This document shows positions 1 through 60,605 of a DNA stretch of 64,000 nt, piece by piece. The stretch is taken from IMG/VR virus record IMGVR_UViG_3300022839_001288, positions 1 to 64,000 of that record. The stretch is one strand, 5' to 3'. Source of the stretch: a virus. The stretch's first letter is position 1; each line of letters begins with the position of its first letter. The translations under genes were made by a program, and so were the position numbers. The notes beneath the pieces are model-generated. The model did not search any database. It was not told the DNA's origin and saw only the letters and a program-made list of their open reading frames with translations.

Positions 1-1045
1 TTACATATTCCATACCTGCTTCATCTATTTGGGTAGCTGATACATTTTCACCTTCTGATGTTGTTGTAGGTTTACGTGTAGGACTATAATATAAACCTGT
101 GCCTCCTATTTGTAATTTTTTAACTACATCTCTTGACCACTCAAATGGGTTTTCTATTCCTTGAACCTCCATTAAAATTCCAAAATTTGTCATGTTGTTT
201 CTAAAAGATTCATCCTTTTTAGCATGACCATTATAGCTATGATTACCATATGTTTCCTCAACAGCAACATAGGCTGCGTTGTTGTTTGTACAGAATGAAC
301 GAAGTGATACTCCTTTATCCTCGTACTTACGATATAATTTGAAGTCATAGGATACATCAATCAATTTTTGAAAGTGTTTTTGTGGTGCTTCAAATCGAAC
401 ACCTATTTGTACTGGTTTTGGTTCTGTAGGTAAGTCATATTTTTCAGCTAATTCTTTACCAAAGTCAATACCTGATTTGCCTACACCAAATATAAGTTTA
501 TCATATTTTATTGTTTCTTTTGGAGTATTCCAATCACAATACAATTCTTGATTATCAAAATCAATTTCAGTTACTTTAGTTTCCCAAATAAATTCTACAC
601 CACCTTCTACTAAGAAATCATACCAATTTTTACCTATTTCATGTAGATAATCTGTACCAACGTGCCATACAGGGAATAATCTTAACCCAAAATAGGGTTT
701 AATAAAATCAGGTTCTGTTTGGGGGTCCGAACATTGTACCTCTTCTGGTTTTGGGTGGAAGCGTTTGAAGTTAGCTATAACTTGATCAAATAAACCCATT
801 GCTTTTTCTTCACCACAATATTTACTTAATTGACCTCCAATTGATGTGTGGTAAGTTAACTTGCCGTCTGACCAGCCACCGCAACCTAAGAAACCTGTCA
901 TTACCTCACTATACTTTCGTTTATGTGGGTTTTTACCCATATCAATAATAGTAATTTTACCTTTAAAACCTTCATCAACCAACTTGGTAGCAGCAGCAAC
1001 ATTTGCCACGCCTGATCCGACCATTACTATCTTTTGATTTTTCAT
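1..1045 (-). CDS. FAD-dependent dehydrogenase (COG2509-like), 3' end outside window
   Basis: I translated this from the sequence: the frame is open from ATG at 1045 to base 1, about 348 residues without a stop, so the C-terminus lies beyond the left edge. The N-terminus is a Rossmann dinucleotide-binding fold (VMVGSGVANVAAATKL, residues 7-22; beta strand ITIIDMG at 31-37). GCGGWSDGKLTYH near residues 54-66 and VQIGVRFEAPQ in the middle are typical of the uncharacterised FAD-dependent dehydrogenase family. The substrate cannot be told from sequence. This is an unusual cargo gene for a phage and may be an auxiliary metabolic gene. A broken copy of its start lies at 1718-1869, with a homing-type endonuclease gene between. 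Family assignment is by remembered motifs, so redox function is likely and specificity unknown. Confidence 0.75.
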   Translation of the reverse strand, partial: MKNQKIVMVGSGVANVAAATKLVDEGFKGKITIIDMGKNPHKRKYSEVMTGFLGCGGWSDGKLTYHTSIGGQLSKYCGEEKAMGLFDQVIANFKRFHPKPEEVQCSDPQTEPDFIKPYFGLRLFPVWHVGTDYLHEIGKNWYDFLVEGGVEFIWETKVTEIDFDNQELYCDWNTPKETIKYDKLIFGVGKSGIDFGKELAEKYDLPTEPKPVQIGVRFEAPQKHFQKLIDVSYDFKLYRKYEDKGVSLRSFCTNNNAAYVAVEETYGNHSYNGHAKKDESFRNNMTNFGILMEVQGIENPFEWSRDVVKKLQIGGTGLYYSPTRKPTTTSEGENVSATQIDEAGMEYV

Positions 1046-1068
1046 ATTTATTTTTATTTAATTTTTAT

Positions 1069-1698
1069 TTAATTTTTATATTCCCACTTATAACCTAAAG
1101 CGGTTTTTTGTCTCCCCAATATACAATCTTTTATCTGGGAAGACAAATTACTCGTTTTTCCTGTTTGTTCTTTTAACCATAAAGCCGCTTGACCCTTACT
1201 TTCCCATTCTTTAATAAAATTTCCTTTTAAATCCTTTTGTAATAAGGGTTTGGCTTGTTTTAGTTTTGCTTTTTTTATGTTTTCTATATGTTGTTCTGTG
1301 AAGGGTTTAGGTATCCCTTTTTGAGATTTAGACATTTTACTCTTAACTTCGGGGGTATAGTATTGAGAGTGGTTTATTAAAGATTGACTTATATTTTTAC
1401 CGCGTGTGGGGTGGTTTGAAATAGCGTCTCTACGCTTTTTAGTATCCCACTTAGAATCCCATTGGGTAGGACCACCACCACCTTTATTTTTATTTTCCAA
1501 ATCAAAACCCCAAGAAATAAACTGTTCTATCCAATAACATTCCCAAAATTTCCAGTGTTCATCTGCGGATTCTTCTAGTATTAATTGTGTAATGTCCTTT
1601 CCAAATTTATGTTTATGATGGTTTAATCTTTTTTTGGGATTTATAGACTTTCCCACATAAAATGGTATATTATTTTTCTCTAAAAGATAAATTTTCAT
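1069..1698 (-). CDS. GIY-YIG homing endonuclease with NUMOD3 and IENR1-type domains
   Basis: 209 residues from the start I prefer (MKIYLLEKN). The catalytic GIY-YIG module is at the N-terminus: KIYLLEKN..PFYVGKS, a basic stretch, then WECYWIEQF carrying the family glutamate. A NUMOD3-like DNA-binding motif (KSQKGIPKPFTEQHIENIKKAK) follows, then a C-terminal IENR1/NUMOD1-like region ending LGYKWEY. The frame could start 36 bases upstream, but those codons are the out-of-frame remnant of the FAD pseudogene, so 1698 is more likely. It lies 23 bases upstream of the intact FAD gene and directly after the broken copy. Such enzymes nick or cut a target and spread by homing. The FAD locus is the obvious candidate target, by inference from position only. 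Confidence 0.85.
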   Translation of the reverse strand: MKIYLLEKNNIPFYVGKSINPKKRLNHHKHKFGKDITQLILEESADEHWKFWECYWIEQFISWGFDLENKNKGGGGPTQWDSKWDTKKRRDAISNHPTRGKNISQSLINHSQYYTPEVKSKMSKSQKGIPKPFTEQHIENIKKAKLKQAKPLLQKDLKGNFIKEWESKGQAALWLKEQTGKTSNLSSQIKDCILGRQKTALGYKWEYKN

Positions 1699-1717
1699 AG
1701 GTTTAATTTTATTATAC

Positions 1718-1869
1718 ATATGTAAAAGTCCCATCAGACCAACCCCACACTAAATGGAATTACCCATATCAATAATAGTAATTTTACCTTTAAAACCACT
1801 ATCAATTAGCTTAGTAGCAGCGTTTACATTTGCTACACCTGCTCCAACCATTACTACATTTTTATTCAT
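1718..1869 (-). pseudogene. truncated second copy of the FAD dehydrogenase N-terminus
   Basis: From ATG at 1869 the frame reads MNKNVVMVGAGVANVN and continues to IIDMGN, matching residues 1-38 of the intact gene at 1-1045 almost throughout (about 30 of 37 positions). It then meets TAG after 40 codons. In the next frame the sequence resumes as GWSDGTFTY, matching GWSDGKLTYH at residues 57-66 of the intact protein. Relative to the intact gene about 40 bases are missing, which explains the frameshift. Similarity stops near 1718, where the endonuclease gene begins. The start overlaps the stop of the upstream gene (ATGA), the arrangement of a once-translated gene. A 39-residue Rossmann fragment could still be made. 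I read it as the relic of a tandem duplication or of homing-associated damage. Confidence 0.8.
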
Positions 1870-2117
1870 ATTGTATCCTTATTTAAAAAATCTCTTAATA
1901 TTACTGCTTTTTCATAATATTCATTATCTATAGCAAATTCTAGCATATCTCTTACCATGTTATCTAACATACGAGTATCGTTTGGGAGTTCTGCTGAAAG
2001 TTTAACTATAAGTGGTATTTTAAATCCACGTTGTTCCATTTCAAATATACTCTTTAAAGTAAGATTACTATTTTCATATTCTTTTCTCTGATCTTTAGTT
2101 AGTATTTTTTGATTCAT
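1866..2117 (-). CDS. small protein with UVR-like helical motif
   Basis: 83 residues, charged, no membrane segment. The C-terminal half (LEFAIDNEYYEKAVILRDFLNK) looks like the UVR motif of UvrB/UvrC, a two-helix protein-interaction element, but nothing else of those proteins is present. It has its own promoter of the T(T/A)GG-N19-TATATT family at 2151-2179, and its stop overlaps the ATG of the FAD pseudogene. That suggests it once headed a two-gene unit with an FAD dehydrogenase. Function unknown; a regulatory or adaptor role is speculation. Confidence 0.7.
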   Translation of the reverse strand: MNQKILTKDQRKEYENSNLTLKSIFEMEQRGFKIPLIVKLSAELPNDTRMLDNMVRDMLEFAIDNEYYEKAVILRDFLNKDTI

Positions 2118-2150
2118 ATCATTATTCCGTTATATTTTTATCTATATGTT

Positions 2151-2179
2151 AATATACGAAAAAAAAGTGTGGCATCCAA
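2151..2179 (-). promoter_or_regulatory. early-type promoter TTGG-N19-TATATT
   Basis: On the minus strand TTGG is followed after exactly 19 bases by TATATTAAC, 33 bases upstream of ATG at 2117. Same layout as ten other sites in the window. The -33 box lies in the loop and stem of the terminator at 2159-2189, so termination and initiation signals overlap. Confidence 0.6.
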
Positions 2180-2189
2180 AAGATGCCAC
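2159..2189 (-). terminator. Rho-independent terminator
   Basis: On the minus strand GTGGCATC pairs perfectly with GATGCCAC (8 bp, loop TTTTG) and is followed by AC and a run of eight T. It would end transcripts coming from the 2270-7547 genes and the LRR block upstream. It is the clearest terminator in the window. Confidence 0.8.
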
Positions 2190-2269
2190 AGATATCGTAT
2201 TTATTTTTAAATCGAATAGGCTATGAATCTATTCTGTAAGTTTTTAGTTTTTATTACTTATAAAGAGTT

Positions 2270-2635
2270 TTATAATATAAAAAGTTGAATATTAATTTTA
2301 TATTGATCTAATTCCTCATAGAACCATTCTTCAAAATCTTCCCATACTCCTCTTTCTTCTTCGTCTTCCCATTCATCTTCAAACAACTCCTTACATGTTT
2401 CTAATAATTCTGGTCCTGTTCCTTTGTATAAGTAGGGTTCATTATTATCAATAAAAATCATTAATTGTAATTTACTAGATTCAAAATCTGAGATTATTGG
2501 TGATATTTGGGTACCACTTTTATTTTCTTCTACTTGTCCAAAATCCCCAGCATCCATACGATCTTCTAAATCATCATCAGGTTGTGCTGTTTCTCCTTCT
2601 ACCAAGTATTTTCTAAATGTATTTAATTCTTTCAT
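2270..2635 (-). CDS. acidic phage protein with MKEL..YLVE leader
   Basis: 121 residues, strongly acidic (runs such as DEWEDEEERGVWEDFEEW), no recognised domain. The first residues MKELNTFRKYLVE|GE resemble those of the next gene (MKELTAFRKYLAE|D) and of 7098-7547 (LRKYLAE|GK). An (L/I)xE motif at this position is the cleavage signature of T4-type prohead proteases, used in capsid-targeted internal proteins, so packaging in the head is a reasonable inference. It is the last gene before the terminator at 2159-2189 and its start is preceded by AATAAAGAT. Confidence 0.75.
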   Translation of the reverse strand: MKELNTFRKYLVEGETAQPDDDLEDRMDAGDFGQVEENKSGTQISPIISDFESSKLQLMIFIDNNEPYLYKGTGPELLETCKELFEDEWEDEEERGVWEDFEEWFYEELDQYKINIQLFIL

Positions 2636-2648
2636 ATCTTTATTTTAT

Positions 2649-3062
2649 TTATTTTATTTGGGATAATTTGATCTTTATTTTTTCTCCATTTGAAGATACA
2701 CTATATAGGTCATAATTGAAATCTCTTAATTCAAAGTAGGGATATATAGCCCCATCATATGGTTCTTCTAATTTAATATCATATTTACCTATTTTGAATT
2801 TCTCTCCGTCTCTTTTGATATCGTGAGTATTTTTTATTTTTTTAGACGCTTTACCTCCAGCATATACCTTATCCCCGGATTTAATTGAAAATTCATCTTT
2901 ATCTTGAAAGGTTTTAGACCCGTATTTTTTCAAAATACTATATATTCTATCAACACCTTGTTTTTTTATATCGTTAAATTTGATATAGTAATGATCTGCT
3001 GTTTTTTCTTCTTTTGATATATCTTCTGCTAAATATTTTCTAAATGCTGTTAATTCTTTCAT
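2649..3062 (-). CDS. phage protein with MKEL..YLAE leader
   Basis: 137 residues, lysine-rich. It begins MKELTAFRKYLAE, nearly the same leader as the gene downstream, 13 bases away. The body (residues 20-137) has alternating basic and hydrophobic stretches and SGDKVYAGGKASKKIKN, but I recognise no family. The shared leader with unrelated bodies is what a common targeting signal would look like, as in T4 internal head proteins. Function of the body unknown. Confidence 0.75.
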   Translation of the reverse strand: MKELTAFRKYLAEDISKEEKTADHYYIKFNDIKKQGVDRIYSILKKYGSKTFQDKDEFSIKSGDKVYAGGKASKKIKNTHDIKRDGEKFKIGKYDIKLEEPYDGAIYPYFELRDFNYDLYSVSSNGEKIKIKLSQIK

Positions 3063-3080
3063 ATCTTTATTTTATTTATT

Positions 3081-3146
3081 TTAACAATTACAACAAGAAC
3101 AGTCACAAGACGTCCCACAGTTACATACTTTGTAGTTACATTTCAT
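3081..3146 (-). CDS. 21-residue cysteine-rich miniprotein
   Basis: Too short for routine gene calling. ATG at 3146 opens MKCNYKVCNCGTSCDCSCCN plus a final Cys and TAA. Eight of 21 residues are cysteine, in CxC, CxxxC and CC arrangements, like a minimal metallothionein or zinc-binding peptide. It lies between two conserved phage genes in the same orientation. A second tiny frame, MKELKK and stop, starts at 3173 just upstream and looks like a stub of the MKEL leader. The gene two places upstream (3527-4147) also begins cysteine-rich (MCKCGCNTC). Whether it is translated cannot be told here. Confidence 0.45.
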   Translation of the reverse strand: MKCNYKVCNCGTSCDCSCCNC

Positions 3147-3185
3147 ATTAATTTATTTTTTTAGTTCTTTCATATTGTTATTCTA

Positions 3186-3515
3186 TTACCAAGCTTTACA
3201 AGACCAATATCTTGCCATTGTTTTAGGTCCTGGTGAGTCACAGTTAAATCGGGATCTAAATGCTTTTCTACGTTTAGGGTTTGATTTTCTAATGCTCATA
3301 GTTGGACGTTTTGCAGACGAACCACCATGTCCAAAATTTACTTTTTTTACTTTAATAGAACCATCAGCATTTTTCTTACCTGAGTTGACATATACTTTAA
3401 ATTTTTTACTATCACCACGTGAGGGTTTATTTAATGTAACAGTTTTACCTTGGTACTTTGCTTCCGTAATATTTTCATCAATGATTTCCATTTCTAATAA
3501 TTCATTAATTTCCAT
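3186..3515 (-). CDS. conserved phage structural-type protein (RRKAFRSRFNCDSPGP family)
   Basis: 109 residues. The C-terminal half carries RKSNPKRRKAFRSRFNC and then PGPKTMARYWSCKAW, which I recognise as a widespread small protein of large myoviruses, usually listed as a structural or virion protein of unknown role. The two conserved cysteines and the basic run suggest a compact metal- or nucleic-acid-binding fold, but this is inference. The N-terminus MEINELLEMEIIDE is leader-like. The last residue is Trp followed by TAG or TAA in frame. It sits 11 bases after the 3527-4147 gene. Confidence 0.75.
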   Translation of the reverse strand: MEINELLEMEIIDENITEAKYQGKTVTLNKPSRGDSKKFKVYVNSGKKNADGSIKVKKVNFGHGGSSAKRPTMSIRKSNPKRRKAFRSRFNCDSPGPKTMARYWSCKAW

Positions 3516-3526
3516 ATCTACTTCAT

Positions 3527-4147
3527 CTACTTCAGTGGTTTTTTTTTTAAGGATTCTGTGGGTTCTTCGAAATTAGATTCTTTCATAGGTACACAATTAT
3601 CAACGGTTTTACCACCTTTCTTTTTTGTGCCTGCTAATTTATACCCTTTCCAACATGCTTTTCCATCTATTCCCTTAAGTTTTTCATCTATTTTACCTTT
3701 TGCTTTAGCTTTTCTAACTAAAGAATTCCAATTAGATAAATCATATTCGTCCCAAGGTTCAACTTCCATTTTATTAAATGTCTTTTCTTGACCTTTTACA
3801 GGTTTAGAATTTAGATAATGTATCTCATTTTGGGTTAATGAAAAAAATTTATTTACTTGATCTTGAGTCGGTAATTCATATTTTTCATCCATTTCACCTT
3901 CATTTAGATACGTTTTTATTAACTTTATATCACCTTCACTTAAATCTAATATATTACGAGAATACATTTTTTTAGCTTCTTTAATTAGAAGTGCTTTGGA
4001 TTTTAAGTCAAGTTGTGATTCATATAATGGTATATTCTCATCAATATGAAATTGTAAGTTTTTAGATAACAGGGATTTTAATTTACTTTTAGTAAGTAAA
4101 GGTCCTGTTATTTTTGTTTTGCAAGTATTACATCCGCATTTACACAT
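3527..4147 (-). CDS. conserved phage protein with KACWKGYKLAGTKKKGG motif
   Basis: 206 residues. It starts with a cysteine-rich tag (MCKCGCNTCKTK) and continues with a helical region (residues 20-130). Near the C-terminus it has GKACWKGYKLAGTKKKGGK and DNCVPM, a motif common in large myoviruses, often as part of capsid-associated or internal proteins. It is followed by a short acidic/lysine tail. No enzymatic motif is visible. It lies 4 bases after the nuclease-like gene at 4152-5252, so the genes are likely co-transcribed. Confidence 0.7.
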   Translation of the reverse strand: MCKCGCNTCKTKITGPLLTKSKLKSLLSKNLQFHIDENIPLYESQLDLKSKALLIKEAKKMYSRNILDLSEGDIKLIKTYLNEGEMDEKYELPTQDQVNKFFSLTQNEIHYLNSKPVKGQEKTFNKMEVEPWDEYDLSNWNSLVRKAKAKGKIDEKLKGIDGKACWKGYKLAGTKKKGGKTVDNCVPMKESNFEEPTESLKKKPLK

Positions 4148-7642: not shown

Positions 7643-8173
7643 TCATTTTATATAAATTTGACCTTTTACTCCAGGTACCATTTGTTTGATTTGTTCTTTA
7701 CTATATTTTTTAGAGATGGGGGTATTATATAAATCAAGATCACCTCCTACTATTAAACCTTGGGGTAGGGAGGTTATTGGTGTATTTCTTAAATTAAGAT
7801 TACCTCCTACTGTTAAACCTTGAGGTAGGGAGGTTATTTTAGTCCCAAATAAATCAAGAAAATCTCCTACTGTTAAACCTTGAGGTAATGAGGTTATTTT
7901 GGTATTTCCTAAATAAAGAGAACCTCCAACAGTTAAACTTTGTGATAATGTGGTTATTTTAGTATCTTCTAAATCAAGATAACCTTCTACTCTTAAACCT
8001 TGAGGTAGGGAGGTTATTGGGGTACCTCCTAAATCAAGATCACCTTTACTACCATCCTTTATATACTGTTGGATTTTCTTTTGCGTAGCAATTAAAAAGT
8101 TCTTAGAGCGTTCTTCAGGGGAACGTCTGGTGGTTAATATTTTATTTTCTAGTAGGTCTATTAATTTTATCAT
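7643..8173 (-). CDS. leucine-rich-repeat protein, 5 repeats
   Basis: 176 residues. The family plan is: leader MIKLIDLLENKI, a basic helix (RRSPEERSKNFLIATQKKI), LRRs of 20 residues (consensus TxITSLPQGLTVGGxLxL), and a C-cap ISKKYSKEQIKQMVPGVKG. This copy has five repeats, one with the variant TLSQSL. LRR solenoids bind proteins; the partner is unknown. Last gene of the array. Its ATG overlaps the previous stop by one base (TAATG), so translation is probably coupled. Confidence 0.85.
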   Translation of the reverse strand: MIKLIDLLENKILTTRRSPEERSKNFLIATQKKIQQYIKDGSKGDLDLGGTPITSLPQGLRVEGYLDLEDTKITTLSQSLTVGGSLYLGNTKITSLPQGLTVGDFLDLFGTKITSLPQGLTVGGNLNLRNTPITSLPQGLIVGGDLDLYNTPISKKYSKEQIKQMVPGVKGQIYIK

Positions 8174-8760
8174 TATGTATAAATTTCACCTTTCACACCA
8201 GGCACCATTGTTTTAATTTGTTCTTTACTATATTTTTTAGAGATGGGGGTATTAGTTAAACCAAGAAATCTTCCTACTTTTAAATCTTGGGGTAGGGAGG
8301 TTATTGGGGTATCTCTTAAATAAAGATTACCTCCTACTGTTAAACCTTGTGGTAGGGAGGTAATAGGAGTATATGATAAATAAAGATCACTTCCTACCGT
8401 TAATCCTTGGGGTAGTGAGGTTATGGGGGTATTACTTAAATAAAGAGAACCTCCTACTTTTAAACCTTGAGGGAGGGTGGTTATTTTAGTACTACCTAAA
8501 TTAAGATCACCTCCTACTGTTAAGCCTTGAGGTAGGGAGGTTATTGGGGTACCAGATAAATCAAGATAACCTTCTACTCTTAAACCTTGAGGTAGGGAGG
8601 TTATTGGGGTACCAGATAAATCAAGATCACCTTTACTACCATCCTTTATATACTGTTGGATTTTCTTTTGAGTAGCAATTAAAAAGTTCTTAGAGCGTTC
8701 TTCTTTGGAACGTCTAGGGACTAGTATTTTGTTTTCTAAGAGATCTATTAGTTTTATCAT
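8173..8760 (-). CDS. leucine-rich-repeat protein, 6 repeats
   Basis: 195 residues, same leader, basic helix and C-cap as its neighbours, with six 20-residue repeats. It differs from the others in RSKEERS instead of RSPEERS in the helix and in VGRFLGL in the last repeat. Both ends overlap adjacent stops and starts by one base. The variable positions are those following GG and before T(P/K)IT, that is, one face of the predicted solenoid, which suggests changes in ligand binding. Confidence 0.85.
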   Translation of the reverse strand: MIKLIDLLENKILVPRRSKEERSKNFLIATQKKIQQYIKDGSKGDLDLSGTPITSLPQGLRVEGYLDLSGTPITSLPQGLTVGGDLNLGSTKITTLPQGLKVGGSLYLSNTPITSLPQGLTVGSDLYLSYTPITSLPQGLTVGGNLYLRDTPITSLPQDLKVGRFLGLTNTPISKKYSKEQIKTMVPGVKGEIYT

Positions 8761-9167
8761 TATATATAAATTTGACCTTTTACTCCAGGTACCATTTGTT
8801 TGATTTGTTCTTCACTATATTTTTTGGAAAGTGGGGTATTAGATAAATTAAGATCACCACCAACTTTTAAATCTTGAGGTAGGGAGGTTATTTTGGTATT
8901 ATATAAATCAAGAAAACCTCCTACTTTTAAACCTTGGGGGAGGGAGACTATTAGGGTATTAGATAAATCAAGATAACCTCCTACTTTTAAACCTTGAGGG
9001 AGGGAGGTTATTGGAGTATTTTCTAAGTTAAGATCACCTTTACTACCATCCTTTATATACTGTTGGATTTTCTTTTGAGTAGCAATTAAAAAATTCTTAG
9101 AGCGTTCTTCAGGGGAGCGTCTGGTGGTTAATATTTTATTTTCTAGAAGGTCTATTAATTTTATCAT
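8760..9167 (-). CDS. leucine-rich-repeat protein, 3 repeats (shortest copy)
   Basis: 135 residues. Leader and basic helix are identical to those of 7643-8173, but there are only three LRRs before the cap (LSKKYSEEQIKQMVPGVKG). The low repeat number looks like the result of in-frame loss of 60-nt units rather than truncation, since both ends of the protein are intact. Start and stop overlap neighbours by one base each. A three-repeat solenoid may be too short for stable ligand binding. Confidence 0.85.
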   Translation of the reverse strand: MIKLIDLLENKILTTRRSPEERSKNFLIATQKKIQQYIKDGSKGDLNLENTPITSLPQGLKVGGYLDLSNTLIVSLPQGLKVGGFLDLYNTKITSLPQDLKVGGDLNLSNTPLSKKYSEEQIKQMVPGVKGQIYI

Positions 9168-9916
9168 TATGAAATTCCTATAATATAGGTATATTCTTTT
9201 ATATCACTCTTTGAAATTTGTTTATCTAACCCATCATACCCATCAATTTTTCCATTATCTAATACCGCCAAAGCAACAACTACTAAATTCTTCCAGGTTT
9301 TTGGAAATTTATCTTGAAGTTGTTTTAACATTTGCTCTGATTTTACTTTAATATAATAAAAAGTTACATTATTTGTATAGTAATAATCATTAAAGTGATC
9401 GGGGGCTTTATAAGTTGTACACCATGAGGAATCTTTTCCACCATCACTACAGTCTCTAAATGCAAATTGGGATAATCCAAGCTTACGGGATGCCTCATGG
9501 GTATGAGGAGTCATTATTAGTAGGTCTGCAGTGTCTACTACCGTATCGTAATCTGATTCTAGGTCTTTGGTAGATACATTTTCTCCTGAGTTATTAATAC
9601 CATCAACTTCATCTTGTAAATCTTTAAATAATTTGAATTGATATACATCTTTAGTTTTTGCTTTACCTTTTTCTAAAAATGTATTAAATTCTTCAATTGT
9701 GTTTCGTAGCTCATCTAAATCAGTAACTTGTTTATTAACCCATTGTTTTGCCATCCAACCTACATACTTTCGGGTTGGTGATGGGTCTATATCAATTAAA
9801 GCTTTTAGTTCGTCTTGGGTTAATTTACCTGAGTCGATATACTGTTTTGCCTGTTTTACGTTTTCTAAAATTGAATGTTTGTTTTCAATTAGAAGTTTTG
9901 GATTGTTAAATTTCAT
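9167..9916 (-). CDS. phage protein with SSWCTT...FNDYYYTN motif, inside the LRR array
   Basis: 249 residues, not an LRR protein. Residues 1-110 are helical, with leader MKFNNPKLLIE|N. Residues 130-235 contain VVDTADLLIMTPHTHEASRK, SSWCTTYKAPDHFNDYY and NVTFYYIKV. This W-C-(T/I)-(T/A)..F..Y pattern recurs in uncharacterised proteins of large phages, and conserved Cys, His and Asp hint at an enzyme, but I know no function. It is coupled to the LRR gene downstream (stop/start overlap at 9167). The insertion separates three LRR genes from the other five. Confidence 0.7.
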   Translation of the reverse strand: MKFNNPKLLIENKHSILENVKQAKQYIDSGKLTQDELKALIDIDPSPTRKYVGWMAKQWVNKQVTDLDELRNTIEEFNTFLEKGKAKTKDVYQFKLFKDLQDEVDGINNSGENVSTKDLESDYDTVVDTADLLIMTPHTHEASRKLGLSQFAFRDCSDGGKDSSWCTTYKAPDHFNDYYYTNNVTFYYIKVKSEQMLKQLQDKFPKTWKNLVVVALAVLDNGKIDGYDGLDKQISKSDIKEYTYIIGIS

Positions 9917-9950
9917 TTTGTTATTTTATATTAGTTTTACCATTATATGT

Positions 9951-9959
9951 TTATAAATA
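9951..9959 (-). promoter_or_regulatory. ATATTTATAA motif overlapping LRR gene stop
   Basis: Minus-strand ATATATTTATAAACATATAATGG, at the very end of the LRR gene and 34 bases before ATG 9916. The same run recurs at 10877-10885. Confidence 0.3.
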
Positions 9960-10478
9960 TATACTACCTTTTACTCCAGGCACCATTTGTTTAATTTGTT
10001 CTTCACTATATTTTTTGGAAAGTGGGGTATTAGATAAATCAAGAAAACTTCCTACTTTTAAATCTTTAGGTAGGGCGGTTATTTCAGTATCATATGAATA
10101 AATACCACCTCCTACTGTTAAACCTTGAGGTAGGGTGGTTACTTTAGTACCATATAAATTAAGATTACCTCCTACTGTTAAACCTTGAGGGAGGGAGGTT
10201 ATTAGGGTGTTTTGTAAATCAAGGTAACTACCTACTTTTAAACCTTGAGGGAGGGAGGTTAATTTAGTACCCATTAAATTAAGATCACCTCCTACTGTTA
10301 AGCCTTGAGGTAGGGAGGTTATTGGGGTATTTCTTAAATCAAGATCACCTTTACTCCCATCCTTAATGTATTGTTGAATTTTCTTTTGAGTAGCAATTAT
10401 ATAATTCTTAGAGCGTTCTTCAGGAGAGCGTCTAGGGACTAGTATTTTATTTTCTAAGAGATCTATTAGTTTTATCAT
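9951..10478 (-). CDS. leucine-rich-repeat protein, 5 repeats
   Basis: 175 residues. Five LRRs, more diverged than in other copies (TKLTSLPQ, TKVTTLPQ, TEITALPKDL), and a repeat reading GGGIYSYDTEI where other copies have GGxLxLxxT. The basic helix has NYIIATQKKI, shared with the 12-13.6 kb copies rather than the 7.6-9.1 kb copies. The ATG overlaps the stop of 10475-10849 by four bases (ATGA), so it is coupled to a non-LRR gene. The C-terminus ends SIYL. Confidence 0.85.
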   Translation of the reverse strand: MIKLIDLLENKILVPRRSPEERSKNYIIATQKKIQQYIKDGSKGDLDLRNTPITSLPQGLTVGGDLNLMGTKLTSLPQGLKVGSYLDLQNTLITSLPQGLTVGGNLNLYGTKVTTLPQGLTVGGGIYSYDTEITALPKDLKVGSFLDLSNTPLSKKYSEEQIKQMVPGVKGSIYL

Positions 10479-10849
10479 TTTACAATTTTAAAGTTTTTAC
10501 CTTTATATTTTTCTTCTTTTGCTTTAGATAATGCTTCTTCTTCAGATCTTGCTTTTACCATAATATAGTCATCATCATAATTATCGTCTCTATATACCCA
10601 GTATTGTACCTCATATTCTTTTTCCTCTGATTCGTTTAAATTATTAAAATTTAATTCAGTAAGAGAGGATGCAATAGAAAATCTTAATAGGGATTTATCC
10701 CTAGGTGTTTGGAAGTAGTCTGGGAAGTCATTTGTTAGTTGATTATAAATAATGTTAACCTTCTGTTTGGCTTTTAAATCTTCATCGCTCATATTACTCT
10801 CTAAAATACGATTAGTATTCCAAGAATGTACATCAAAATTATCTTTCAT
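10475..10849 (-). CDS. small phage protein with NTNRILE leader
   Basis: 124 residues. The start MKDNFDVHSWNTNRILE|SN is a common opening in this kind of phage and ends in an (I/L)xE motif. Residues 25-75 are helical. Residues 78-124 (EYEVQYWVYRDDNYDDDYIMVKARSEEEALSKAKEE) look like a small alpha/beta domain of the type that wraps as a beta hairpin plus helix. No known function. It is a second non-LRR insertion in the LRR array. Confidence 0.7.
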   Translation of the reverse strand: MKDNFDVHSWNTNRILESNMSDEDLKAKQKVNIIYNQLTNDFPDYFQTPRDKSLLRFSIASSLTELNFNNLNESEEKEYEVQYWVYRDDNYDDDYIMVKARSEEEALSKAKEEKYKGKNFKIVK

Positions 10850-10876
10850 AGTGTTATTAGTTTTATCATTATATGT

Positions 10877-10885
10877 TTATAAATA
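10877..10885 (-). promoter_or_regulatory. ATATTTATAA motif before 10475-10849
   Basis: 27 bases upstream of ATG 10849, overlapping the stop of the LRR gene. Copy of the sequence at 9951. Confidence 0.3.
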
Positions 10886-11464
10886 TATACTACCTTTTAC
10901 TCCAGGTACCATTTGTTTAATTTGTTCTTTAGTGGATTTTTTAGAAAGGGGTGTATTTCTTAAATTAAGATCACCTCCTACTGTTAAGCCTTGAGGTAGG
11001 GAGGTTATTTTAGTATTATATAAATAAAGATCACCTCCTACTGTTAATCCTTGAGGTAGGGAGGTTATTTCACTATTATTTAAATAAATATAACCTCCTA
11101 CTTTTAAACCTTGAGGTAGGGAGGTGATAGGGGTATTACTTAAATAAAGATTATCTCCTACTGTTAAGCCTTGAGGTAGGGAGGTTATTTTGCTCCCATA
11201 TAAATTAAGAGTACCTCCTACTTTTAAACCTTGAGGTAGGGTGGTTATTAGGGTATTATTTAAGCTAAGATTACCTCCTACTGTTAAACCTTGAGGTAGG
11301 GAGGTTATTGGTGTACCTGCTAAATTAAGACCACCTTTACCCCCATCCTTTATATACTGTTGAATCTTCTTTTGAGTAGCAATTAAAAAGTTCTTAGAAC
11401 GTTCCTCAGGGGAGCGTCTAGGGATTAATATTTTGTTTTCTAGTAAATCTATTAATTTTATCAT
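10877..11464 (-). CDS. leucine-rich-repeat protein, 6 repeats
   Basis: 195 residues from MIKLIDLL. The frame is open nine codons further upstream (MKYYIYNDK), but those lie in the 3' end of the next gene and the family start is MIKL. Six LRRs; the first four and the N-terminus are identical to those of 11472-12122 because of the 658-bp duplication. C-cap LSKKSTKEQIK is shared with 12900-13607. An ATATTTATAA motif lies 7 bases before the ATG. Confidence 0.85.
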   Translation of the reverse strand: MIKLIDLLENKILIPRRSPEERSKNFLIATQKKIQQYIKDGGKGGLNLAGTPITSLPQGLTVGGNLSLNNTLITTLPQGLKVGGTLNLYGSKITSLPQGLTVGDNLYLSNTPITSLPQGLKVGGYIYLNNSEITSLPQGLTVGGDLYLYNTKITSLPQGLTVGGDLNLRNTPLSKKSTKEQIKQMVPGVKGSIYL

Positions 11465-11471
11465 TTTATCA

Positions 11472-11480
11472 TTATAAATA
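11472..11480 (-). promoter_or_regulatory. ATATTTATAA motif, 7 bases before LRR start 11464
   Basis: Minus-strand TATATTTATAATGATAAA then ATG. Lies inside the duplicated unit, so it was copied with it. Confidence 0.4.
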
Positions 11481-12122
11481 TAATATTTCACCTTTTACTC
11501 CAGGCACCATTTGTTTAATTTGTTCTTCACTATATTTTTTAGAGATGGGTGTTTTCTCTAAATCAAGATTACCTCCTACTATTAAATCTTGGGGTAGGGA
11601 GGTTATTTTAGTATTATATAAATTAAGATTACCTCCTACTTTTAAACCTTGAGGGAGGGAGGTTATTTTAGTACCCATTAAATTAAGATCACCTCCTACT
11701 GTTAAGCCTTGAGGTAGGGAGGTTATTTTAGTATTATATAAATAAAGATTACCTCCTACTTTTAAATCTTGAGGTAGGGAGGTTATTGGGGTATTACTTA
11801 AATAAAGATTATCTCCTACTGTTAAGCCTTGAGGTAGGGAGGTTATTTTGCTCCCATATAAATTAAGAGTACCTCCTACTTTTAAACCTTGAGGTAGGGT
11901 GGTTATTAGGGTATTATTTAAGCTAAGATTACCTCCTACTGTTAAACCTTGAGGTAGGGAGGTTATTGGTGTACCTGCTAAATTAAGACCACCTTTACCC
12001 CCATCCTTTATATACTGTTGAATCTTCTTTTGAGTAGCAATTAAAAAGTTCTTAGAACGTTCCTCAGGGGAGCGTCTAGGGATTAATATTTTGTTTTCTA
12101 GTAAATCTATTAATTTTATCAT
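11472..12122 (-). CDS. leucine-rich-repeat protein, 7 repeats, chimeric duplicate
   Basis: 216 residues. Residues 1 to about 110 are identical to the 10877-11464 protein and residues from about 111 to the end (VGGNLYLYNTKITSLPQ onward, cap and EILYL tail) are identical to the 12130-12900 protein. The gene is thus a fusion of the front of one neighbour and the back of the other, created by the 658-bp duplication. Family start MIKL at 12122 preferred over the longer MKYYIY start. Seven LRRs. The product is intact and in frame, so it is probably functional. Confidence 0.85.
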   Translation of the reverse strand: MIKLIDLLENKILIPRRSPEERSKNFLIATQKKIQQYIKDGGKGGLNLAGTPITSLPQGLTVGGNLSLNNTLITTLPQGLKVGGTLNLYGSKITSLPQGLTVGDNLYLSNTPITSLPQDLKVGGNLYLYNTKITSLPQGLTVGGDLNLMGTKITSLPQGLKVGGNLNLYNTKITSLPQDLIVGGNLDLEKTPISKKYSEEQIKQMVPGVKGEILYL

Positions 12123-12129
12123 TTTATCA

Positions 12130-12138
12130 TTATAAATA
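12130..12138 (-). promoter_or_regulatory. ATATTTATAA motif, 7 bases before LRR start 12122
   Basis: Second copy of the motif at 11472, offset 658. Confidence 0.4.
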
Positions 12139-12900
12139 TAATATTTCACCTTTTACTCCAGGCACCATTTGTTTAATTTGTTCTTCACTATATTTTTTAG
12201 AGATGGGTGTTTTCTCTAAATCAAGATTACCTCCTACTATTAAATCTTGGGGTAGGGAGGTTATTTTAGTATTATATAAATTAAGATTACCTCCTACTTT
12301 TAAACCTTGAGGGAGGGAGGTTATTTTAGTACCCATTAAATTAAGATCACCTCCTACTGTTAAGCCTTGAGGTAGGGAGGTTATTTTAGTATTATATAAA
12401 TAAAGATTACCTCCTACTTTTAAATCTTGAGGTAGGGAGGTTATTGGGGTATCTCTTAAATAAAGACTACCTCCTACTGTTAAATCTTGAGGTAATAAGG
12501 TAATAGGAGTATATGATAAATAAAGATCACTTCCTACCGTTAATCCTTGGGGTAGTGAGGTTATTGGGGTACTAGTTAAATAAATATAACCTCCTACTTT
12601 TAAACCTTGAGGTAGGGAAGTTATTGAAGTATCTCTTAAATCAAGATAACCTCCTACTGTTAAGCCCGGAGGTAAAAAGGTTATTTTAGTATTACCTAAA
12701 TCAAGAGAACCTCCTACTGTTAAACCTTGAGGTAGGGAGGTTATTGGGGTACCAGATAAATCAAGAGTACCTTTACTTCCATCCTTCATGTATTGTTGGA
12801 TTTTCTTTTGAGTAGCAATTACATAATTCTTAGAGCGTTCTTCGGGAGAACGTCTAGGGACTAGGATTTTATTTTCTAAGAGATCTATTAATTTTATCAT
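12130..12900 (-). CDS. leucine-rich-repeat protein, 9 repeats (longest copy)
   Basis: 256 residues, nine LRRs. Repeat 2 has TKITFLPPGL, where Pro replaces the conserved Gln. Repeats 4 and 5 (VGSDLYLSYTPIT) are shared with 8173-8760, which shows exchange between distant copies. The last three repeats plus cap are identical to those of 11472-12122. It ends EILYL, with an extra Leu relative to most copies. ATG at 12900 overlaps the preceding stop by one base. Confidence 0.85.
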   Translation of the reverse strand: MIKLIDLLENKILVPRRSPEERSKNYVIATQKKIQQYMKDGSKGTLDLSGTPITSLPQGLTVGGSLDLGNTKITFLPPGLTVGGYLDLRDTSITSLPQGLKVGGYIYLTSTPITSLPQGLTVGSDLYLSYTPITLLPQDLTVGGSLYLRDTPITSLPQDLKVGGNLYLYNTKITSLPQGLTVGGDLNLMGTKITSLPQGLKVGGNLNLYNTKITSLPQDLIVGGNLDLEKTPISKKYSEEQIKQMVPGVKGEILYL

Positions 12901-13607
12901 TATGTATAAATTTCACCTTTTACTCCAGGTACCATTTGTTTAATTTGTTCTTTAGTGGATTTTTTAGAAAGGGGTGTATTTCTTAAATCAAGATCACCTC
13001 CTACTGTTAAATCTTGGGGTAATGAGGTTATTTTGCTCCCATATAAATCAAGATCACCTCCTACTGTTAAACCTTGTGGTAGAGAGGTTATTGGAGTATT
13101 CCTTAAATCAAGATCACCTACTACTTTTAAACCTTGGGGTAATGAGGTTATTTTGGTATTACTTAAATAAAGATAACCTCCTACTTTTAAATCCTGAGGT
13201 AGGGAAGTTATTTTAGTACTATTTAAATCAAGATAACCTCCTACTGTTAAGCCTTGGGGTAGGGTAGTTATTAATGTACCCCCTAAATAAAGATCACCCC
13301 CTACTTTTAAATTATTAGGTAGGGAGATTATTTTAGTCCTAAATAAATCAAGAGAACCTCCTACTGTTAAACCTTGGGGTAATGAGGTTATTGGGGTACT
13401 ATTTAAATTAAGATCACCTCCTACTTTTAAACCTTGAGGTAATGAGGTTATTGGGGTATTTTTTAAATTAAGACCACCTTTACTTCCATCCTTCATGTAT
13501 TGTTGAATCTTTTTTTGAGTAGCGATTACATAATTCTTAGAGCGTTCTTCAGGGGAGCGTCTAGGGACTAAAATTTTATTTTCTAATAGATCTATTAGTT
13601 TTATCAT
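12900..13607 (-). CDS. leucine-rich-repeat protein, 8 repeats, first of the array
   Basis: 235 residues, eight LRRs, among them a diverged one (TKIISLPNNLKVGG). First LRR gene in transcription order, two bases after the zinc-ribbon gene at 13609, with no separate promoter seen, so the array is probably read from further upstream. Cap LSKKSTKEQIKQMVPGVKG as in 10877-11464. The plus-strand frames over this gene are mirror images of the repeat and not genes. Confidence 0.85.
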   Translation of the reverse strand: MIKLIDLLENKILVPRRSPEERSKNYVIATQKKIQQYMKDGSKGGLNLKNTPITSLPQGLKVGGDLNLNSTPITSLPQGLTVGGSLDLFRTKIISLPNNLKVGGDLYLGGTLITTLPQGLTVGGYLDLNSTKITSLPQDLKVGGYLYLSNTKITSLPQGLKVVGDLDLRNTPITSLPQGLTVGGDLDLYGSKITSLPQDLTVGGDLDLRNTPLSKKSTKEQIKQMVPGVKGEIYT

Positions 13608-14910: not shown

Positions 14911-15705
14911 TTATTTTTTAATATTAGTATATCTAAAACCCTTATAAAATATAGATTTATTTATGATTTTTCTAAGTTTTGTAGTTCCTAAAACACCACT
15001 ACCTTCAAAACTCATAAATGAGGGGTAAATATTGATTAATTCTTCGTTTATATTATATTGATATATAGCTTTAGTTTTGATTTTTCTTATTTTATCTTTA
15101 TACTCTTGTGAGCGTTTCTCCCCCTCTCTAGAGTTATGAGTTTTTATTCTTCTCTCAACCGTCCATTCTAGTCCTCTTTTTTTTGTAATATAACAAGGGA
15201 TTTTTTGTTTTATTGTTCCTTTTTTATATAACCATTGATATCCATAGGTTGATTTATATTTACCTCTAGCACAATCATTAATATTATTTGATGTTCCTTT
15301 ATTAAATTGTTTAATGGCATCACTTGCCCCCTTATATTCCTTAATAAAATCTCCATTTAAAGAATATTGTAATATTGATTTCATAGAGTTAACTCTTCTT
15401 AATTCTTCACTTTCTTTACTTAATTCTCCACCATCACCCCCTAAAGTTAAGTTTAAACCATTAATAGCACTCTTTAAGGTCAGAATATGATGTATTTCTT
15501 TTTTATTTAATTCCTCAAACCTACATTCTTCGATTATACTAAATTCATGTTTTTCAGGTCCATATTTTTTTAAACTATTATATAATTTTCTTTGTTGATG
15601 ACAATGTTGCATTTTATTATAAGAACTAAATCTACCCTCAATATTTTTACTTTTTCCTATATAAATTTTACCTTTTGGGTTTGTAATTTTATAAATTCCT
15701 ACCAT
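14911..15705 (-). CDS. GIY-YIG homing endonuclease with IENR1 repeats
   Basis: 264 residues. Canonical N-terminal catalytic domain: GIYKITNPKGKIYIGKS, then RFSSYNK, and IHHILTL carrying the family Glu region (NKKEIHHIL). After the nuclease there are two IENR1-like DNA-binding modules (SILQYSLNGDFIKEYKGASD...YGYQWLY and AIYQYNINEELINIYPSF...FRYTN). It stands alone between the HAD gene and the nucleotidyltransferase, with a candidate ATATTTATAA signal 10 bases before the ATG. It does not visibly split a gene. One of three such enzymes here, and not closely similar to the one at 1069. Confidence 0.85.
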   Translation of the reverse strand: MVGIYKITNPKGKIYIGKSKNIEGRFSSYNKMQHCHQQRKLYNSLKKYGPEKHEFSIIEECRFEELNKKEIHHILTLKSAINGLNLTLGGDGGELSKESEELRRVNSMKSILQYSLNGDFIKEYKGASDAIKQFNKGTSNNINDCARGKYKSTYGYQWLYKKGTIKQKIPCYITKKRGLEWTVERRIKTHNSREGEKRSQEYKDKIRKIKTKAIYQYNINEELINIYPSFMSFEGSGVLGTTKLRKIINKSIFYKGFRYTNIKK

Positions 15706-16930: not shown

Positions 16931-17713
16931 TTACATATATGAATATGCTAATTCAGATAACTGCTTATTTACTCTTATATCTTCGGGCATAGAATTAATA
17001 CCTGGCATATGGTTACCTCTTAAATCTACTAAGCGATTTGATTGTGTTAAATTTTCTTGTATTCTGTTAAACACAGTCCATAAGCTATTTCCTTTATCTT
17101 CATCCCTTACTACGTTTAGTAGTTGATTAGGATTAAAATTATACTTATCACCATCGCGTATTTTAGCGGATTGAGCAGCCATCTTAAACATCAGGTCGTT
17201 TGTTAAATCTTTTTGTTGTAAGCTTTGAAAATCTTTAATAACACTTTGGGTTTTAATGTTTAAACTTGCAAGTATTTCATTTAATTTATAATAATCTTTA
17301 GATGTATGGTTTATATTTTGACATTGAATAGTATCTCTTGCTATTGCACCATTACCACATACCATTCTATATACTCCTAAATTTAAGGATAAAGGAGATT
17401 TACCATTACTAGAATTTGTAATAGTAAGATTAGAGATAGCTTCGGTTTGGCCTTTAATATCTAGCACATTAAAATCAGGATGTTCCATCTTGATAGTATG
17501 ATTATCTATTTGGCGTGTTTTTTTACTTAAATTTTGATAAGATCCTTTGATTTTCCAACCTTCTTTTCTAAGATTATCAATAACATCTAAAGTTTCTATT
17601 TGGTACTCCTTAGAAGATATTTTTTGGTGGTTTCTGTAATTTTTATCTAGTGAAGGTGTAAACGCTATTAACTTATTTACATTATCATCTAATGGTATAA
17701 AATTTGCTCTCAT
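16931..17713 (-). CDS. DUF932-family protein
   Basis: 260 residues. Contains LGVYRMVCGNGAI (the family's xRxxCxNG motif), ITNSSNGKSPLSLN and NSLWTVFNRIQENL. These match the DUF932/phage-plasmid-like family, whose biochemical role is not settled. A second member at 59796-60605 shares the same motifs (GLFRMICENGLV, LWEVFNRVQENI) but is clearly diverged. Its ATG overlaps the stop of a 44-residue gene upstream (ATGA). It appears to belong to the early operon that starts at the promoter at 18688. Confidence 0.75.
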   Translation of the reverse strand: MRANFIPLDDNVNKLIAFTPSLDKNYRNHQKISSKEYQIETLDVIDNLRKEGWKIKGSYQNLSKKTRQIDNHTIKMEHPDFNVLDIKGQTEAISNLTITNSSNGKSPLSLNLGVYRMVCGNGAIARDTIQCQNINHTSKDYYKLNEILASLNIKTQSVIKDFQSLQQKDLTNDLMFKMAAQSAKIRDGDKYNFNPNQLLNVVRDEDKGNSLWTVFNRIQENLTQSNRLVDLRGNHMPGINSMPEDIRVNKQLSELAYSYM

Positions 17714-22954: not shown

Positions 22955-23428
22955 TCAAAAAGTATGATATATACCAATAAAATCACTAGTAAACATACGA
23001 CCCGCTATGTTATCATTCCAATATGAATTTGGTGTCTCTAAGACCTCTAGTTTAAAAAGATATTTTGTTTCCAAATAGGTTAGGTGTTTTTTATTAAAAG
23101 CAAACTCAAGTATTTCTTTTGTGAAATTGTGTTTACCTTCTTCTTTTATAAATTTAATAAGTATTTTATTAGACCCACAGTAGGTTTTCCAATCTGATTC
23201 CTCAATTACTAGTTTTTTAGAAGGTAGTTTTCCTCTTGTTTTTAGAGATTTTCTTTCTTCTTTTAATATTTCTAGTTCTTTCTTACCCAACCTTTTATTG
23301 CGTTGAGTAAAAAAGTTTTTTCTACCAATATATATTTTGCCTGTAGGTGTGTGAGTTATCTTGTATACAAACCCAAAATCTCCATCATTAAGGGTAGTAA
23401 ATTCTTTGTTTTTGTATATCCAATTCAT
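22955..23428 (-). CDS. GIY-YIG endonuclease (Seg-like, free-standing)
   Basis: 157 residues. GFVYKITHTPTGKIYIGRKNF is a full GIY-YIG signature; DWKTYCGSNKILIKFI and YLETKYLFKLEVL (with the catalytic Glu) follow. There is no NUMOD or IENR1 module, unlike the other two GIY-YIG genes. It resembles small free-standing phage nucleases. It sits between the primase and the TPR-like gene with 41 to 72 bases on either side and does not appear to split a gene. Confidence 0.8.
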   Translation of the reverse strand: MNWIYKNKEFTTLNDGDFGFVYKITHTPTGKIYIGRKNFFTQRNKRLGKKELEILKEERKSLKTRGKLPSKKLVIEESDWKTYCGSNKILIKFIKEEGKHNFTKEILEFAFNKKHLTYLETKYLFKLEVLETPNSYWNDNIAGRMFTSDFIGIYHTF

Positions 23429-59157: not shown

Positions 59158-59796
59158 TCAATCCACTACTATTTTAAATGATTTTTCTATAACTTCCCTA
59201 GGACCTATATCATTATTAAAAGTAGTTTTTATAAATATCTGTAAAGTATCACCTATCATCTCATTATCCAAAAATATTTGCTGTCTAGGTTTATAATTAT
59301 ATTTACTGTATGTACCTAATAAACTCTCAGCATAGGGGCACTCCCAACAAAAATGTTTAGGAATTTGATACCCCGAAATATTTAAAGGAGGACTTATTTG
59401 TGCTATATCTGATAAAGTATATTCAATATTTCCTATAGAAATTGGAGTATTAAAATCGCCTCCTGTAAACCAACTTAGTACTGAGTAGGTAGGTACTTTA
59501 AAATTAATACTATCAAACACTACCCAATAATCAGAATCATACTGTGTTTCAATTAAGGGAATACCGTTAATTTCTGCATTGATTTCATCTAATTCCCCCT
59601 GAATTGTGAAATATCCTAACCCATAATAAAAAACATGCCAATATCCATTAACATCTTGATAAGTATTAGGTTGAACTGATGTATCTATATAGAATTCAGA
59701 ATTGCATAACCCATCTACACAAACTGATTCATTAATATCTTCGGGGCTACACGCCCCAAAGATACATAATAATAATATATACTTAAAATTATTCAT
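59158..59796 (-). CDS. secreted lipoprotein
   Basis: 212 residues. The N-terminus is a type II signal peptide: MNNFKYILLLCIFGAC, with lipobox FGAC and the modified Cys at residue 16. The next residues, SPED, are acidic as in the surface-export signals of Bacteroidota lipoproteins. Mature part: aromatic beta-type, with a Cys pair at CVDGLC and another at HFCWEC, so disulfides are likely. It may sit on the host surface and block receptors or superinfecting phages. It shares one base with the DUF932 start/stop. Not known to me as a family. Confidence 0.75.
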   Translation of the reverse strand: MNNFKYILLLCIFGACSPEDINESVCVDGLCNSEFYIDTSVQPNTYQDVNGYWHVFYYGLGYFTIQGELDEINAEINGIPLIETQYDSDYWVVFDSINFKVPTYSVLSWFTGGDFNTPISIGNIEYTLSDIAQISPPLNISGYQIPKHFCWECPYAESLLGTYSKYNYKPRQQIFLDNEMIGDTLQIFIKTTFNNDIGPREVIEKSFKIVVD

Positions 59797-60605
59797 TATA
59801 CTACAAATTCTAAAGCTCTTGAAAATAATTTTTTATTCAAATCATGATCTTGCTTAAAATTCTTAATAACTCGAGCTTGACGGGTTTTACCATTGGAGGT
59901 ATTATATTTAAAATTTCCTTCAATAATATTCTCTTGAACTCTATTAAAAACTTCCCATAATCCCATTCCTTCATCAGCATTTCTTTGAGGTATTAAAACA
60001 TCATAAATAGCGGAATCATTAAATGAATTGCTAGATCCTTCAATTCTTATGTCTAAAAATGATTTCGCTAGATCAAACATCTGATCCTCAGATAATTCAA
60101 TTTCTTTCATTTTGTTCATTGAATCAACAGTTAAAGGCAACTTTAAAACCATCTCTTTAATAACACCTTGTAGTGTTTCGAAATCGTATCCCATATGACG
60201 AACCTTAATATCTTCGAAGGTTTCGGTTGATATAACTAAACCATTCTCACAAATCATTCTAAATAAACCCGCAGTAAATTTAAATGAATTTTTACCATCA
60301 TGTGAGTTAGTAAGTAATATTTGAGGGTAAACAGTATCTCCATCCTCTCCACTAATTACAACATCAGCATTTCTAAAAACAACTAAATGTTTTTGAAATC
60401 CCATAGTAGCTTGTGTTCTTGCAGCTACTTGTTTAGCATCTACAACACGCCATCCTAATAATTCCATATCTCCAATCACTTTATTAGTTGGAATGTGAGT
60501 ATACTTTTCGGAAGTATCAGAGGATCCGGACTTTGTGAAAATACTAGGAGCTATTTTCTTTAACTCTTCTAAACTTTTGAACTCATTGCTTTTGTAATCC
60601 AACAT
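59796..60605 (-). CDS. DUF932-family protein, second copy
   Basis: 269 residues. GLFRMICENGLVISTETFEDIKVRHMGYD and QILLTNSHDGKNSFKFTAG correspond to the family core; GLWEVFNRVQENIIEGN is shared with 16931-17713 (SLWTVFNRIQENLTQSN). Residues 1-75 differ. It has its own early-type promoter at 60653. Two diverged members in one phage suggest different partners. Confidence 0.75.
   Translation of the reverse strand: MLDYKSNEFKSLEELKKIAPSIFTKSGSSDTSEKYTHIPTNKVIGDMELLGWRVVDAKQVAARTQATMGFQKHLVVFRNADVVISGEDGDTVYPQILLTNSHDGKNSFKFTAGLFRMICENGLVISTETFEDIKVRHMGYDFETLQGVIKEMVLKLPLTVDSMNKMKEIELSEDQMFDLAKSFLDIRIEGSSNSFNDSAIYDVLIPQRNADEGMGLWEVFNRVQENIIEGNFKYNTSNGKTRQARVIKNFKQDHDLNKKLFSRALEFVV

Follow-up and report, generated by a model that had tools for sequence, protein, structure and literature searches.

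Gene arrangement at the locus

The window is a stretch of 64,000 nucleotides from a linear IMG/VR record of 66 kb, and its gene content, judged from the reading frames, suggests a T4-like tailed phage. Near its beginning, three parts follow one another on the minus strand, all where the first-pass annotation had placed them: a 5' fragment of a gene for an FAD-dependent oxidoreductase (1760-1869), a GIY-YIG endonuclease gene (1069-1698), and an FAD-oxidoreductase gene that begins at 1045. The features described below are all on this strand.

The fragment is preceded by a gene of 83 amino acids without an assigned function (1866-2117), whose stop overlaps the ATG of the fragment. This ATG, at 1869, opens the short frame MNKNVVMVGAGVANVNAATKLIDSGFKGKITIIDMGNSI, which is closed by a stop codon. 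The fragment repeats the beginning of the downstream gene, as had been noticed: codons 3-38 match at 78-80% (tblastn E=5e-13). The boundary between the fragment and the leader of the endonuclease is formed by a 15-nt junction, TTCCATTTAGTGTGG (1745-1759), with no clear match in the downstream FAD gene or in the relatives L163 and L164 described below. The leader holds the element GGTTGGTCTGATGG (1731-1744) and, 3' of it, the late-promoter-like sequence TATAATA (1710-1716).

The endonuclease has 209 residues. A Pfam profile search assigns it to PF01541 above the cut-off (E=6e-7), and the GIY-YIG positions Y, G, R, E, and N are conserved in its alignment. Relatives begin the endonuclease at the counterpart of the ATG at 1698 rather than 1734, at a constant +38 from the leader. 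The gene is free-standing: it sits between two reading frames, outside any intron or intein (Rfam). No Rfam intron family was matched in positions 1-4000 of the window, and no group I intron fold was found.

The gene that follows (1-1045), here called FAD-A, contains Pyr_redox_2 and belongs to phrog_12409, "dehydrogenase". It had been described as intact, and it does look intact from 1045, but it runs off the contig end, leaving about 100 C-terminal residues outside the contig (relatives have about 450). Because window positions 1-520 are 100% identical to phages with different 5' halves (L115 and L119), the 3' half of FAD-A may have been recently exchanged or mis-assembled; the fragment, the leader, the endonuclease, and the 5' half of FAD-A are unaffected. 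The order of fragment, endonuclease, and FAD gene recurs in a second IMG/VR contig, 3300022843_001042 (L083, L162), which is 100% identical to the window over 6.7 kb, and the two assemblies may share a sample.

A displaced resident allele

Searching with the 83-aa upstream gene retrieved L163 and L164, which are 95-98% identical to the window across several flanking segments. Their copy of the upstream gene, with 99-100% amino acid identity, directly precedes one full-length FAD gene. Positions 2280-1760 of the window align to L163 426-945 at 98.1% (521 nt, upstream gene included), and the alignment ends at GGGTAA (1760). The single FAD gene of L163 and L164 continues exactly where the fragment in the window ends; beyond that region it has 58% amino acid identity to FAD-A.

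Because the fragment, together with the upstream gene, matches this single divergent FAD gene at 98%, the comparison identifies it as a relic: the first 36 codons of a former resident allele, called FAD-B, which was displaced, while FAD-A arrived with the endonuclease. The annotation's idea of an endonuclease-driven event involving the FAD gene is supported. The result it had named as refuting, relatives in which the segment 1718-1869 is an independent conserved gene, was not found, and that reading of the fragment was rejected.

The relic and the beginning of the L163/L164 FAD gene are 95% identical, with 5 differences in 110 nt. Of the five differences from L163, four lie within the final 38 nt, where the relic is identical to FAD-A. 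At the local rate, at least four differences would fall there with P ~0.001. The stretch may represent a short conversion patch beside the join, which is only suggestive in a stretch that is generally conserved. A second FAD relic, of about 10 codons, is found immediately 5' of the leader in L281.

The leader and the alteration of the presumed target site

The element GGTTGGTCTGATGG is an exact 14-nt match to codons 57-61 in the consensus of FAD genes without the endonuclease, the presumed target, and is longer than any match in 300 shuffles (maximum 12). The leader imitates FAD codons 57-65 in this way just before TATAATA. In the first-pass annotation, GWSDGTFTY was taken as sequence picked up by the broken copy. 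WSDGTFTY can indeed be read out of frame at about 1744-1718, but it is part of the conserved leader of the endonuclease and not of the broken gene.

L084-L086, L194, L281, and the loci of the pattern scan described next all have the mimic in this position. An ungapped leader of 30 nt, with a fixed spacing between mimic and TATAATA, is common to endonucleases that are 45-63% identical. In L084-L086, where it likewise ends in TATAATA, the endonuclease homologues directly precede full FAD genes, and no relic is present. TATAATA is presumably a late promoter. A sequence like the presumed homing site lies at a fixed spacing to the late-promoter-like element of the endonuclease, as in I-TevI.

When IMG/VR was scanned with the pattern GGTCTGAYGGNNNTTNNNNATATNTATAAT, matches to the leader turned up in 24 stretches. 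Of these, 22 extend far enough for an assessment, and each has a GIY-YIG gene 37-38 nt further on and then an FAD gene; apart from the window's own phage, these FAD genes are 64-75% identical to that of the window. In one of their frames, the leaders encode GGWSDGxLxY or a similar peptide, which can be compared with FAD codons 56-65 (GGWSDGKLTY). The pattern that retrieved most of the leaders fixes GGTCTGAYGG, which builds in part of their conservation; selecting loci in this way biases leader conservation, not the FAD site. Ten endonucleases were found without the pattern: eight carry the leader core, one carries the variant GGATGGACAGATGG, and one has none. By these comparisons, leader, endonuclease, and FAD gene form a conserved module. 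The endonuclease was found in no isolate phage, the genome scan giving distant matches only.

The annotation had also guessed that the WSDG codons matter, and this is supported. In FAD-A, the corresponding site, GGCTGGTCAGACGG (863-877), reads GGC TGG TCA GAC GGC, against GGT TGG TCT GAT GGT in the consensus, and every change is synonymous. The endonuclease adjoins its presumed target, and the copy of the site beside it is altered.

For a wider comparison, non-carriers were defined as FAD genes without an endonuclease within 700 nt (n=122), and mismatches to GGTTGGTCTGATGG were scored at codons 57-61. The sequence is exact in 59 of the 122 non-carriers and has at most two mismatches in 96; the site is altered in 26. 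All 24 scorable carriers have at least three mismatches, and some of their sites alter amino acids too (W to F, G to A or L). The carrier site is more altered than that of the nearest non-carrier in 21 of 21 pairs. On a tree of the FAD protein built without the target-site columns, carriers are scattered, and supported branches require the endonuclease to have been gained or lost at least 10 times. Tree-sister pairs of a carrier and a non-carrier all point in the same direction (9/9, p=0.004). A stricter test on independent pairs, with a threshold of three mismatches, gives five to six pairs for and none against (median p 0.06). Leaders are nearer to the unaltered consensus than to their own FAD gene in 20 of 20 cases. 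These counts establish, at the level of sequence, that the target is altered in phages bearing the endonuclease while the mimic in the leader is unaltered.

Codons 101-105 were considered as a second target. Their average difference between carriers and non-carriers is larger than that of codons 57-61, with an inconsistent direction (15:2), and can be traced to one clade. The candidate was rejected since endonuclease-free members of that clade show the same state.

Homologous endonucleases are also found before small thioredoxin genes with WCNPC or WCQPC (L089:675-1532, L092:1378-2243, L097:3945-4912, and L102:2379-3343). The leaders of these four hold TGGTGTNNNCCTTG (W C x P), a mimic of the codons for the thioredoxin active site WCxPC. 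In L102, the leader encodes WCNPC using codons unlike those of the gene at every synonymous position (TGT AAT CCT TGT versus TGC AAC CCA TGC). The sequence TGGTGTNNNCC lies upstream of none of the 54 thioredoxin genes that lack this endonuclease and have enough upstream sequence. Thioredoxin genes without the endonuclease share no single codon form, so recoding of the target could not be shown in this group. A generic scan of leader peptides against neighbouring genes, extended to other endonucleases and mostly underpowered, is clear only for L086 (FAD) and L102 (thioredoxin), with one further match, to an upstream gene in L130.

Proposed mechanism, alternatives, and related systems

The locus is probably the product of homing by a free-standing GIY-YIG cassette with an altered target copy and an operator-like leader. 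Such a cassette would consist of a leader with a copy of the target beside a late promoter, the endonuclease gene, and an FAD gene with an altered, presumably uncuttable target. The endonuclease would recognise the FAD gene near codons 57-62, cutting at or near these codons in co-infecting phages with the common form. We infer that the alteration makes the cassette's own FAD copy immune to cutting. In the phage of the window, the cassette would have entered a genome that carried one FAD gene, a divergent allele. Cleavage probably took place in the 5' part of this resident gene, and the cassette, complete FAD gene included, would have been copied in during repair. The left join, inside the resident gene, would have stranded the first 36 codons, and the right join would lie past the contig end. 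The target region of the resident type FAD-B, CTATTTTCAGATGG, does not resemble the presumed target; cleavage may thus have hit a different allele, or may have occurred elsewhere in the gene. The relics at the left edge, in the window and the shorter one in L281, are, judging from their sequences, direct traces of cassettes entering resident FAD genes.

The mimic probably serves as an operator by which the endonuclease represses its own late promoter. A precedent can be found in I-TevI of T4, whose operator is a homing-site-like sequence (15/20) overlapping the late promoter just 5' of the endonuclease (PMC2988022). The enzyme binds this operator and cuts it about 100-fold less than the homing site, and autorepression has also been proposed for I-TevII and I-TevIII (PMC2988022). 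The likeness lies in a homing-site-like element beside a late promoter; here, repression is predicted from sequence. Further, I-TevI, II, and III are intron-encoded, whereas the endonuclease in the window is free-standing.

The chief alternative to an operator is that the mimic is a left homology arm, or the left flank of the insertion site. The cut end of a recipient, ending in GGTTGGTCTGATGG, would pair with it, and the endonuclease and the full FAD gene would be copied in after it. This would fit the exact match of the mimic to uncut recipients, which the cassette's own gene does not share, and the FAD relics that the window and L281 have directly 5' of the leader. Such a join should, however, leave codons ~39-57, which are kept in no relic; the fixed distance to the late promoter would be needless for an arm, and some 14-20 nt is short for homologous recombination. 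We regard this role as unlikely, though worth keeping in mind.

Ordinary mosaic recombination could also have joined a donor segment with endonuclease and FAD gene to the resident gene, without cleavage, the site alteration then reflecting lineage history. Phage genomes are mosaic, and codons 101-105 do differ between groups as lineage markers. The alteration at the target site, on the other hand, follows the endonuclease on scattered branches, one way in all nine sister pairs, and the leader holds the same sequence unaltered, which makes this account improbable.

The first idea in the annotation was gene duplication within the phage, followed by an endonuclease invading and destroying the second copy. 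The two tandem FAD start regions, 81.5% identical over 130 nt, invite this idea. It is nevertheless very unlikely: L163 and L164, which answer a suggestion to look for relatives without the insert, carry one intact FAD gene that resembles the relic at its start and diverges from FAD-A in its body; two full copies, also proposed as a search, were seen in none of the FAD loci examined; and in relatives the endonuclease adjoins one FAD gene without a duplicate. An assembly chimera of two phage populations is just as improbable, for although the contig is metagenomic and its positions 1-520 are shared with phages of differing upstream halves, this doubtful stretch touches only the 3' half of FAD-A, the full order is identical in the second contig, and the leader-endonuclease-FAD arrangement recurs in more than 20 unrelated contigs.

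Homing by a cassette has several known parallels. In T4, the free-standing GIY-YIG endonuclease SegF is inserted between soc and 56 and targets 56, and SegG is inserted between 32 and 59 and targets 32 (PMC2988022). Such T4 endonucleases adjoin their targets, spread by co-conversion of flanking DNA, and cause marker exclusion; seven free-standing genes of T4 are described as promoter-less (PMC2988022). Like SegF, SegG, SegA, and SegE, the endonuclease in the window is intronless and lies beside its presumed target gene. It differs in having a leader with a target mimic and its own late-promoter-like element, and in the record of target alteration, which spans many carriers. Besides the T4 review (PMC2988022), a partial literature search found no paper that joins free-standing homing endonucleases with a late-promoter operator, which is weak evidence of novelty.

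In the mORFs of fungal mitochondria (Allomyces atp6; Glomus atp6, atp9, cox2, and nad3), the C-terminal part of a gene is replaced by a foreign one and the native end is left as a relic (PMC3630166). The window is alike in that an endonuclease element brings foreign gene material and a native part, here the one matching L163 and L164, is left behind. It is a mirror image of the C-terminal exchange in those fungal mitochondrial genes: the relic is 5', the incoming gene has its own start, and the setting is a phage, with a GIY-YIG enzyme and an operator-like leader.

Engineered home-and-rescue or cleave-and-rescue gene drives pair a nuclease with a recoded, uncuttable copy of its target. The cassette likewise pairs a nuclease with an altered target copy, of predicted immunity; it is natural, and its alterations include amino acid changes. 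The locus in the window and its relatives look like a natural home-and-rescue drive: each component, from the target and its altered version to a remnant of the allele that gave way, has sequence evidence behind it. From genome data alone, the mimic gives the sequence that a large family of endonucleases probably recognises, so that target prediction and autorepression can be tested without prior biochemistry. If true, the cassette would explain the repeated swapping of a metabolic gene between aquatic phages. A general class of phage home-and-rescue elements is a tentative proposal, with the odds close to even but slightly against it. Its members would combine a free-standing GIY-YIG endonuclease, a recoded resistant copy of its conserved target gene (FAD-oxidoreductase, or thioredoxin in the sister group), and a leader whose unaltered target sequence serves as a self-repressing operator, spreading by allele replacement and occasionally stranding 5' relics.

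Other endonucleases are found at FAD genes. In the related contigs L115 (3469-5829), L117, and L119 (3451-5829), a different GIY-YIG endonuclease, together with an acetyltransferase-like gene, interrupts the same FAD gene at about codon 172. Both halves are open, the 3' half has its own ATG, and L119 has no Rfam intron match. A split gene of this kind has been reported in phage Aeh1 (mobE/nrdA), which the FAD split looks like. Between L119:4220-8222 and L115, identity is 69-87% up to the middle of the endonuclease and 99-100% for the remaining 4 kb, placing a recombination breakpoint inside the homing endonuclease gene; window positions 1-520 belong to the shared stretch. A third GIY-YIG endonuclease directly overlaps FAD-B, the resident gene, at the 3' end (L163:2137-2814, L164:6550-7227), so that the FAD gene appears to attract endonucleases upstream, inside, and downstream.

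Elsewhere in the window, two more GIY-YIG endonucleases are present (14911-15705 and 22955-23428), one with NUMOD1 and one SegE-like. Positions 7643-13607 hold a tandem array of paralogous small proteins made of near-identical repeats (TSLPQGLTVGGDLYL...), several copies having identical blocks. Two apparent paralogues, possibly DUF932-like, lie at 16931-17713 and 59796-60605 and have similar cores (VYRMVCGNG and LFRMICENG).
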